Below are positions 18,828 through 22,625 of a stretch of 36,353 nt of DNA, piece by piece. The translations under genes were made by a program, and so were the position numbers. This stretch comes from Rhodothermales bacterium (GTDB lineage: Bacteria; Bacteroidota; Rhodothermia; Rhodothermales; JABDKH01): contig JANQRN010000079.1 of assembly GCA_028284545.1 (NCBI GenBank), positions 1 to 36,353 of the forward strand, in the 5' to 3' direction. The notes beneath the pieces are model-generated. The model saw only the letters and a program-made list of their open reading frames with translations, did no database searches and was not told the origin of the DNA. Positions within the stretch are counted from its first letter, which is position 1. Each line of letters opens with the position of its first letter.

Positions 18828-19990
18828 GACGGCCGGTTCGCCTCTGCTTTGTTGGAGACGGCGAGAACTACCACGTGAAGAAGTGGCTACCAGCATTGGC
18901 ACGTGCGGGTTTGCACGTGACCCTTATTTCGTTTGACGCACCTGCCAAAGCACTCGATGGAGTCGAAATACGGCTTCTCAAGAGACGATTCCCGCGCCGA
19001 TCGTATCTGAACTATGTGCAGCCCGCCTCGGAGCTGAATCAACTTCTTGCTCAAGAGCGGTGCGATGTGCTAATAGGATCCTACGCCACCCACTACGGCT
19101 GGCTGGCCGCACGCACGCGCTTCTCGCCGTTTGTCATGCAGACGTGGACCGGAGATCTCACGATCTACCCGGTAAGGTGGCCAAAGCGATTCGCCTTTTT
19201 GCCGGTCGTCCACTACGGACTCTCGCATGCCGATCTGATCACCACAGATGGTAGAGCCTTGCGAGATCTGGGTGCGAGGTATTTCCCTGAGTTTGCTCCA
19301 AAGATGATACCCATACGATGGGGAATAGAAGCCCCACTTGCGGACCCGCTCCCGCTTCGCGAAAGACAATCGTTGATGCGCCGCCTGCAGATAGACATTC
19401 CGGAGTCAAGCGTTGTGATCACGGCTCCTCGCGGACTGCAGCATTGGTATCAGCCCGAATCAGTAATCGAGGGTCTCCTGCACGCATTGGATAGCGCAGC
19501 TGATCTCTTCGTTGTCTTGCTCACCCTGGGGCATGACTACGGAGCCCCGCTGGATCAGCAATTGCGTACGCTGGGTGATCACCCTCGCGCGCATGTCATA
19601 GACCGTTTTCTAGATGGCGAGGAAATGACGGACGTCTGGAAAGCAACGGATATTGTTCTCTCTGTACCCCACGCGGATGGAGTATCAGAATCTGTCCTTG
19701 AAGCCGTCTATTGGGGAGCGTATCCAGTCCTATCTGACATCCCGAGCAACCAAAGCCTCATAGAGGATGGGATGAGAGCCACCTTAGTGCCGCCGGGATC
19801 GACGGAACTGCCGGTGGCAATTGGCGAGGCGATCAGCGCCCACGGACGTTATTCGACGGAGCGCGTTCGAGCGCTACGCGAAGAAAACTCGCAGTGGGTC
19901 ACGGAGAATGCGACTGTTGGTCAAACAGCGGCGCAGCTTGCCGAAATGGTTAGGGATCTGGTACGACAGCGTCCGCGCTCAGCGACTTAG
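18806..19990 (+). CDS. Glycosyltransferase (GT4-like)
   Basis: FVGDGENYHVKKWLPALARAGLHVTLISF; DIVLSVPHADGVSESVLEAVYWGAYPVLSDIPSNQSLIEDG. Confidence 0.85.
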   Translation: MAQGREIGRPVRLCFVGDGENYHVKKWLPALARAGLHVTLISFDAPAKALDGVEIRLLKRRFPRRSYLNYVQPASELNQLLAQERCDVLIGSYATHYGWLAARTRFSPFVMQTWTGDLTIYPVRWPKRFAFLPVVHYGLSHADLITTDGRALRDLGARYFPEFAPKMIPIRWGIEAPLADPLPLRERQSLMRRLQIDIPESSVVITAPRGLQHWYQPESVIEGLLHALDSAADLFVVLLTLGHDYGAPLDQQLRTLGDHPRAHVIDRFLDGEEMTDVWKATDIVLSVPHADGVSESVLEAVYWGAYPVLSDIPSNQSLIEDGMRATLVPPGSTELPVAIGEAISAHGRYSTERVRALREENSQWVTENATVGQTAAQLAEMVRDLVRQRPRSAT

Positions 19991-20826
19991 CTGTCAACGA
20001 ATAGCGGAATATTGCATTTAGACAGGAGGGTCGAGGTAGTGGACCCGAATGCAACCCGCTTGATGGATGAGACAGCATGGGCTCCAGCGACCAGGATATC
20101 ACCGCCAGTCTTCTCCAGGTACTTGAGGATTTCGTCGGCCGGTTTAGATCCTGAGAGACTGATAGCGTTGCAGGTGAACCCATGTGCCTCGACGAACTCA
20201 CGCAAAAGACGAAGCAGCAACTCGGCTTCCCCCTGATTCTTGTGGTGAACGTGCAGCAGGTCGAGTTGCACATCCTGACCAAAAGGCTTCAACTGCACAA
20301 ATCTTGAGACAGCCCGAGCGGCAGCATCGCTACCATCATAGGCAACCACCGCCCGTTTGACATCGAGATACTCGTAGTCAACGACAAGTGTAGGTGCGAC
20401 TGTCCGCTTAACCACACGGGCAACGGTGTTGGTGTCCTTCTTCGGTTGCGCATAGAAGAAGTGCGGATCTTTGCCCATGATCAAGAGATCGTGGACCTTC
20501 ATGTCTTCCACGATTCGCTGAAATGGCACACCTTCATGAATGAACTCGCCGTGGCGAACACCAGCATCCGACATGATGTCCTGGTACTCTGTCATCAGAT
20601 TGCGAGCGAGTTCTCGTGTCTCGTCAGTGAGTTGCTCCTGCAGTTTCTCAGCGTAGTAGAAGCTACCAATACCGCCACCACGGGTACTGGATTCAATCGA
20701 ATGCAGGTCGATAACCGCGAGACAATTCACAAGCGCATCGTGGCGACGGGCAATGCTGATCGCGTACTTCGCAGCGATACTCGTGTCTTCGTCCGAATCG
20801 ATGGCAAGGAGGATTCTCTTAATCAT
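19987..20826 (-). CDS. Universal stress protein, tandem UspA domains
   Basis: MIKRILLAIDSDEDTSIAAKYAISIARRHDA; second domain with KRAVVAYDGSDAAARAV; C-terminal GSTTSTLLSKCNIPLFV. Confidence 0.9.
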   Translation of the reverse strand: MIKRILLAIDSDEDTSIAAKYAISIARRHDALVNCLAVIDLHSIESSTRGGGIGSFYYAEKLQEQLTDETRELARNLMTEYQDIMSDAGVRHGEFIHEGVPFQRIVEDMKVHDLLIMGKDPHFFYAQPKKDTNTVARVVKRTVAPTLVVDYEYLDVKRAVVAYDGSDAAARAVSRFVQLKPFGQDVQLDLLHVHHKNQGEAELLLRLLREFVEAHGFTCNAISLSGSKPADEILKYLEKTGGDILVAGAHAVSSIKRVAFGSTTSTLLSKCNIPLFVDS

Positions 20827-20920
20827 GACGCAAGGATGGGTAAACGACCAGTCATCAAGCTACTTGACATCTGTACGGCGAACAAGACTGCGGAGAGTCT
20901 ACTGAGATGGACCCTCACCG

Positions 20921-21303
20921 CTATCCACAGACGCTTACTTCTTTTGTCTAATGAATGTCTATTTAGAGTTGTAGTAGTAGAGCGGGTGTATATGTGGATA
21001 ATCATGTTCTCCACAGTCGCCGCCACCACGAGTGGATAAGTGTGTGGTTTCTCTGGGCCAGGTTTTGCACGGATTGGTTCGGTATGGCGGCCATATAACC
21101 GCCAGCTCCTGGCAGCGTCAAGTTATCCACACCGCGCCCAATAACGGGCGATTTCGGCCCACAAACGACATGAGGTGGGTAACCGCCAGTAGGTGTTGGT
21201 GTGCTGTGGAGGGCACGCCAAGATGCCCACACGACTCATGGCCGTTGATAAGTCTTCACTGGGCGCGCACGCTCTTCCGTGGGTTATCAACGGGTTACAC
21301 ACA
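20921..21303. other. oriC: Candidate chromosomal replication origin (DnaA-box cluster with DnaA-trio)
   Basis: Perfect DnaA boxes at 20993-21001 (TGTGGATAA) and 21123-21131 (TTATCCACA). 8/9 boxes at 20921-20929 (CTATCCACA), 21007-21015 (TTCTCCACA), 21031-21039 (AGTGGATAA). 7/9 sites at 21243-21251, 21284-21292, 21295-21303. TAGTAGTAG at 20972-20980 beside an AT-rich tract. Confidence 0.72.
20972..21001. promoter_or_regulatory. DnaA-trio / GC spacer / DnaA box (BUS-like unwinding element)
   Basis: TAGTAGTAG-AGCGGGTGTATA-TGTGGATAA. Strand polarity matches the described BUS order. Confidence 0.6.
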
Positions 21304-21335
21304 TGTCCACGAGCCCCAGATTCATCAAATTCTGA

Positions 21336-22625
21336 TCATTCTGGTCGGCCGAGCAGGCGGAACATGGCCTTCTTGTAGGCCTCAACGCCAGGTTGGTCGA
21401 ATGGGTTGACGCCCAGGAGGTACCCGCTGACGGCCACTGCATGTTCGAAGAAGTAGATCAGCTCCCCGATCGCTGCCGGGGTCAACTGGTCGAGCCAGAT
21501 TGTCATATTTGGCAGACCGCCGTCCTCGTGGGCCTCTGACGTGCCCTCGTAGGCCCGCAGGTTGATCTCCGAGTAGGCCTTGCCGGCCAGGTAGTTGAGT
21601 CCGTCAAGATTGTCTGAGTCTTTTGCCACACGGATAGTCGACTTGTCCAGACGGACCATCAGAAAGGTCTCCAGGAGTTGTCGGCGACCGTCCTGCATGT
21701 ACTGCCCCAACGAGTGGAGGTCTGTCGAGTACTGGACGCCGACAGGAAAGATGCCCTTCTTGTCTTTCCCCTCGCTCTCTCCGTAAAGTTGCTGCCACCA
21801 GCCTGCAAAATCGGATAGCTTGGGCTCGAAGACGGCCAGTGCCTCGATCGTATATCCGCGCGCATACAATCGAGATCGCAACTCTGCGTACGCGAGTGCC
21901 GGATGGTATCCATCCGTCGAAACTGCTTCGAGATCAGTGCACATTGCGCGCGCGCCGTAGAAGAGACTGCGAATGTCAACCCCCGCAACGGCGATTGGCA
22001 ACAGCCCAACCGGCGTGAGTACCGAGAATCGTCCGCCGACGTCGGGTGGGATGACGTACTTCTTGTAGGGATGGTCGCTTCGGAGTGCGTTGAGCGCGCC
22101 CTTCTCTGGATCGGTGGTCACGATGACACGGTCATCCGCGTCCTCGAAGTTCCGCTCGAGCCAGTCCCGAAGAAACCGGAAAGCAAGGGCAGGCTCGAGT
22201 GTGGTGCCGCTCTTGGAGATGACGTTCACGAAAACGGATTTCCCTTCGAGATATGCCAGAAGCTCCTGCATATAGGCACCGCTCATATGGTGACCGGCAA
22301 ACAGAATCTCCGTTTTCTCGTCAGACTCTTCGAGGTAGGGTGTCAGGGCGCTAATTACCGCGCGGGCGCCGAGGTATGAGCCACCGATGCCAACGCATAC
22401 GAGCACGTCCGCATTCTGTCTGACGCGCGCAGCGGTTGACACGATGTCCTCGAGCAAGGCATCATTGGGGTCGAGGAGCAGGTCGCGCCATCCGAGAAAC
22501 GAGCTACCCGGACCAGAACCCGACTTGAGCTGCGCGTGCGCGCGCAGCACGGTCTCCCGATTCGGTTCGCCTGGCGCCGACTCGCCTAGAAAGCTATTGA
22601 TGCGGTCAGTGTCTAGCGTAATCAT
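21336..22625 (-). CDS. pgi: Glucose-6-phosphate isomerase
   Basis: VCVGIGGSYLGARAVI, VNVISKSGTTLEPALAFRFLRDWLE, GGRFSVLTPVGLLPIAVAG. Confidence 0.95.
   Translation of the reverse strand: MITLDTDRINSFLGESAPGEPNRETVLRAHAQLKSGSGPGSSFLGWRDLLLDPNDALLEDIVSTAARVRQNADVLVCVGIGGSYLGARAVISALTPYLEESDEKTEILFAGHHMSGAYMQELLAYLEGKSVFVNVISKSGTTLEPALAFRFLRDWLERNFEDADDRVIVTTDPEKGALNALRSDHPYKKYVIPPDVGGRFSVLTPVGLLPIAVAGVDIRSLFYGARAMCTDLEAVSTDGYHPALAYAELRSRLYARGYTIEALAVFEPKLSDFAGWWQQLYGESEGKDKKGIFPVGVQYSTDLHSLGQYMQDGRRQLLETFLMVRLDKSTIRVAKDSDNLDGLNYLAGKAYSEINLRAYEGTSEAHEDGGLPNMTIWLDQLTPAAIGELIYFFEHAVAVSGYLLGVNPFDQPGVEAYKKAMFRLLGRPE

Follow-up and report, generated by a model that had tools for sequence, protein, structure and literature searches.

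Does the gap between usp and gpi, two minus-strand genes of an uncultured Rhodothermales bacterium, hold the site at which the chromosome is opened for replication? The gap lies on the 3' side of gpi, in a window of 36,353 nucleotides (the whole stretch of DNA analyzed), and its minus strand reads TTATCCACA, 12 nt, CTACTACTA, and then AT-rich DNA. An initial annotation had taken this order and polarity for the bacterial basal unwinding system (BUS) and the place for a probable melting site. A BUS is recognized by at least three consecutive 3'-NAN-5' trios, with GAT preferred next to the box. The DnaA box stands no more than 16 bp from the trios, with a published peak at 10-13 nt (PMC8287927). 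Tandem boxes occur in 57% of predicted cases and are not obligatory. Further marks of a BUS are the right orientation of the box, easily melted AT-rich DNA past the trios, a DnaA whose single-strand-binding motif is of the BUS type, and strand separation by DnaA that depends on both box and trios. From comparison of sequences we consider it very probable that the site is the DNA-unwinding core (BUS) of the chromosomal origin, oriC. The features on which the argument draws are the following.

19987-20826, minus strand: usp, universal stress protein gene (PF00582), flank of the putative oriC, adjoining the module in relatives
20827-21335, no strand: putative oriC gap between usp and gpi, 509 bp (box cluster; module in the same gap of relatives, with a switch of GC skew at the corresponding site there)
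20921-20929, plus strand: facing DnaA box CTATCCACA, past the AT-rich tract as seen from the trios; a conserved inverse box in relatives
20934-20971, no strand: predicted AT-rich DNA-unwinding element, within the least stable 60-bp duplex of the window
20972-20980, plus strand: three putative DnaA-trios, 3'-GAT-5' three times, TAGTAGTAG (from the sequence and the alignment of relatives)
20981-20984, minus strand: GC-rich spacer CGCT, 4 nt (the same length in most relatives, 2-5 nt in a few)
20985-20993, minus strand: second tandem box ATATACACC, degenerate (6/9), sharing one base with the first, at the position of a good second box in relatives
20993-21001, minus strand: DnaA box TTATCCACA, the first in the unwinding module, exact consensus, register conserved
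21007-21015, plus strand: DnaA box TTCTCCACA (scan for boxes with at most one mismatch)
21031-21039, minus strand: DnaA box TTATCCACT (same scan)
21123-21131, plus strand: DnaA box TTATCCACA (same scan)
21174-21182, minus strand: weak DnaA-box-like site TTACCCACC, two mismatches
21243-21251, minus strand: weak DnaA-box-like site TTATCAACG, two mismatches, arm of an inverted repeat
21284-21292, plus strand: weak DnaA-box-like site TTATCAACG, two mismatches
21295-21303, plus strand: weak DnaA-box-like site TTACACACA, two mismatches
21336-22625, minus strand: gpi, glucose-6-phosphate isomerase gene (PF00342), flank of the putative oriC, adjoining the module in relatives

Several parts of a BUS are present at this site. 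Three GAT trios run from 20980 to 20972, the exact and correctly oriented box lies 12 nt from them, and the AT-rich DNA past the trios is easily melted by computed duplex stability. By nearest-neighbour stacking energies, duplex stability across the window is lowest at 20939-20979 for stretches of 40 bp, at 20934-20994 for 60 bp and at 20918-21018 for 100 bp, which supports the predicted melting site and locates it. The initial annotation had positioned TAGTAGTAG, AGCGGG (20981-20986) and the box, TGTGGATAA on the plus strand, exactly; the AT-rich string, begun there at 20931, in fact occupies 20934-20971. Its GC spacer holds for the 4 nt at 20981-20984, and the remainder is a degenerate second tandem box, since relatives show two boxes and then 4 nt, with a good box (ATATCCACA/ATTTCCACA) at this very position. 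The tandem box, the GTT that follows the three GAT trios as a fourth triplet, and the facing box had escaped that annotation. Two points count against a BUS: the GAT trios are no more than three, which is the lowest number reported, and the second box is a degenerate one.

Further evidence comes from relatives in many families of the order, which were compared in the DNA that follows gpi or precedes usp. Most families share one register beside gpi and/or usp: a box, a second box 8 bp on, a mostly-GC spacer of 4 nt, CTACTACTA, and AT-rich DNA. On the box strand the module reads TTGTCCACATATCCACA-GCCC-CTACTACTA in G018, CTATCCACATTTCCACA-GGCC-CTACTACTA in G011, and TTATCCACATATACACC-CGCT-CTACTACTA in the window. 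Conservation of the triplets and of their spacing to the box had been proposed as a check on the initial reading; both are kept in most families, in the same gene neighbourhood, and the shared register bears out the proposed order and polarity. A pattern scan covered 114 genomes, and 30 pattern loci were read. Boxes are found nearby at 18 loci; 17 of these adjoin usp and/or gpi, and the remaining one is where a contig ends. Of the 12 loci that have no boxes, 0 adjoin either gene. A DNA search with the whole gap matched a single relative, at the module itself; outside the module the gap changes too quickly. A scan of genome contigs with gpi gave hits mainly in unrelated phyla. In the assembly of the same genus, G001, a contig breaks at the oriC side of usp (C293, L339), which leaves the closest comparison out of the set. 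Some observations count against a BUS. The trio tracts of G002 and G003, of the own family, are degenerate, as are the trios of some Rhodothermus-type genomes. In families f3 and f10 the neighbourhood of gpi showed no module, and family f15 is without this gpi.

These data bear on the best of the rival explanations, in which oriC is indeed here, melting follows from general AT-rich instability beside a box cluster, as in E. coli, and the TAG repeats do not act as trios. As this explanation would have it, no DNA in the window is less stable than the AT-rich tract, and the trios of some relatives are degenerate. We nevertheless hold it to be unlikely: distant families retain the triplets at exactly 4 nt from the second box, in gaps that are otherwise unrecognizable.

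That a triplet repeat and a box came together by chance is far less likely still. The triple repeat itself (TAGTAGTAG/CTACTACTA) occurs once in the window against 0.14 expected. For an exact box within 16 nt of the repeat and in the right polarity, base composition predicts 5e-6 occurrences in a window and 5e-4 in a genome. Dinucleotide shuffling of the gap, repeated 20,000 times, gave the repeat 38 times and the repeat beside a box 0 times. The looser pattern CCACA-N2-16-CTACTACTA has a single match in the own assembly (3.85 Mb), namely the site in the window, and its reversed control has none there. The loose pattern does match by chance in relatives (12 of the 30 loci), and chance juxtaposition is nonetheless refuted already by a register that is conserved across the order. 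That the AT-rich tract is mainly the usp promoter and the repeat incidental is no more credible: usp does start at 20826 and is transcribed away from the tract, but as sole explanation the promoter is unsupported, since a scan for promoters of the sigma-70 type gave no match, Salinibacter-type relatives have the module beside gpi with no usp match (L133, L134, L236, L237), and a skew switch occurs at the site. A coding explanation was dropped, as neither of the overlapping plus-strand ORFs (20446-21039 and 21032-21409) has a Pfam match.

The surroundings are those of an origin. The intergenic cluster of DnaA boxes looked for in a bacterial oriC is present, with five boxes of at most one mismatch in the 509-bp gap and five in the other 35.8 kb (Poisson P ~1e-8). 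The weak site at 21243-21251 is an arm of a perfect inverted repeat of 10 nt, which pairs with 21284-21293. In origins of the own family (L005, L015, L017, L341) the box variants drift to TTATCAACA/TTACCAACA and GTTGG-type sites, which suggests that the DnaA-box consensus of this family has shifted.

GC skew, the other mark of an oriC, switches at the equivalent site of relatives. It was sampled in twenty 20-kb stretches for each relative's chromosome, with the cumulative minimum interpolated. The minimum and the site fall at 585 and 586 kb in G028, at 1165 and 1155 kb in G011, at 35 and 32 kb in G020, and at 2345 and 2394 kb in G015, an offset near the sampling step. In G048 the skew passes from about -0.05 to +0.09 across the site, and in G017 the sole dense box cluster of the sampled DNA (12.7-13.1 kb) coincides with the skew change. 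With its 326 contigs and 81% completeness, the own assembly is too fragmented for skew to be followed past the window, within which the cumulative minimum lies at about 18.5-21 kb. The module is not adjacent to dnaA, which lies at 9 kb in G077, 25 kb in G028, 32 kb in G020, 33 kb in G075 and 35 kb in G032, and further away in G015 (70 kb), G048 (153 kb) and G011 (231 kb). We found nothing relevant in the literature on the oriC of Rhodothermus or Salinibacter. The location between gpi and usp is a simple landmark for oriC and its melting site in an order for which the literature searched gave us no published description, and the comparison yields an order-wide aligned set of unwinding modules. 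The match unique to its genome, the empty count in the shuffles, the least stable duplex, the recurrent register and the sign change of skew in relatives together lead us to an oriC with a BUS.

The initiator is present as well. The own genome carries two full-length DnaA genes (contigs C23 and C205; L001, L002), and many members of the order have two full-length paralogs, including G001, G003, G005, G017, G028, G032, G037 and G048. Tree groups suggest that the paralogs stem from old or repeated duplications. One contig of another genome (G074:C544; L276, L277) encodes two further, very divergent DnaA-like proteins on long tree branches. The DnaA of C23 was aligned to that of PDB entry 8btg, which by sequence and numbering we regard as the DnaA of the BUS structure from B. 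subtilis. With trio-contact residues taken from PMC10721633, six of nine are identical (E183, I193, N196, K222, E223 and E228). The changes are I190V, N187T and R202S, of which the latter two count against a BUS. The DnaA machinery is thus present by sequence, and the detail of base capture may differ.

From what is read directly (sequence, order, polarity, spacing, duplex instability, conservation, the coincidence with a skew switch in relatives and full-length DnaA genes), a course of opening can be proposed by analogy with B. subtilis. DnaA would bind TTATCCACA at 20993-21001 and the adjoining degenerate tandem box as double-stranded DNA. The oligomer would then grow across the 4-nt GC spacer onto the plus strand, where the 3'-GAT-5' trios would be taken up one per protomer, beginning at 20980 and ending at 20972. 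Stretching of the plus strand would open the duplex into the AT-rich tract (20934-20971), in which helicase would be loaded. The remaining boxes (21007-21303) may serve to gather DnaA, and the facing box at 20921-20929 may bound the far side of the bubble.

The facing box recurs in relatives. A box in opposite orientation past the AT-rich tract is found with at most one mismatch in 20 of 35 genomes against 1.3% in shuffles, and with at most two mismatches in 32 of 35 against 17%, both uncorrected for kinship; its distance from the trio start is mostly 42-62 nt. A mirror-image second BUS was considered here, as the plus strand reads CTATCCACA-GACGC-TTACTTCTT with four NAN triplets, and was rejected, there being no enrichment over shuffles: at least three NAN triplets stand beside the facing box in 8 of 33 relatives, with 20% expected. 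We therefore claim the facing box alone, with no trios beside it.

The trios themselves vary within the Salinibacter-type group. The trio table was hand-compiled from alignable modules, the degenerate cases (G002, G003 and several Rhodothermus-type) being left out. In the 34 aligned genomes outside this group, A is always the centre of trios one and two. Nine genomes of family f13 have a central T in trios at the usual register (3'-GTT-5'). In seven of these the box strand carries (CAA)n, and no frame gives a NAN trio near the box; G048 carries TAA(CAA)n and has a skew switch at this central-T module; G017 carries TAATAATAACAA, which is ambiguous and can also be read as NAN with a 3-nt spacer. 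(CAA)n or TAA(CAA)n replaces (CTA)n at the trio position of the Salinibacter-type loci L028, L029, L235-L237, L239-L241, L254 and L286. Those f13 genomes that have CTA trios (G077, G078, G079) branch outside the central-T ones in the DnaA tree, with weak support (81/79), which makes a single switch the simplest history. A tie between trio type and DnaA residue 187 was rejected for lack of correlation: users of GAT and of GTT in the Salinibacter family have the identical initiator-specific motif, FTTEFVQSIQ. Thr at position 187 can give as well as accept a hydrogen bond, and for this reason might possibly take A or T.

In B. subtilis, T at the trio centre weakens origin activity (PMC10721633). 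The authors of the 2021 BUS study suspected deviations in which the central adenine is absent (PMC8287927), for which the Salinibacter-type modules are concrete candidates. The Rhodothermales origin may accordingly be an extended BUS, in which the facing box bounds the unwinding element and the Salinibacter-type trios change their centre from A to T at unchanged register and with the same DnaA motif as GAT-keeping relatives, so that recognition of the trios would have no need of the adenine captured by DnaA in B. subtilis. We put this forward tentatively, as slightly more apt to be wrong than right. Within such a reading, the facing box would possibly load a second helicase or limit the bubble, and the fourth triplet of the window, GTT, would be a first step toward a central T. 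Both features lie outside the published descriptions of BUS that we found. The change of trio centre inside one family, with the DnaA motif unchanged, makes the base-capture model directly testable.

The site itself, by its sequence, is of a known kind, one more instance of a well-formed BUS at oriC. With the BUS of B. subtilis oriC (DnaA-box 6/7, GC spacer, DnaA-trios; PMC6669920, PMC8287927, PMC10721633) it shares the orientation and tandem placing of the boxes, a GC spacer of few nucleotides, the strand on which the 3'-GAT-5' trios lie, the AT-rich DNA that follows them, and a distance of 12 nt between the trios and the better box. It differs in having three GAT and then GTT, whereas six trios are engaged in the B. 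subtilis structure, in its degenerate second box, in the conserved facing box past the AT-rich tract, and in lying beside gpi and usp rather than dnaA. With E. coli oriC it has in common an array of boxes beside an AT-rich unwinding element and a location apart from dnaA; the BUS score of E. coli is reported to be weak (PMC8287927), whereas the trio register here is strict.
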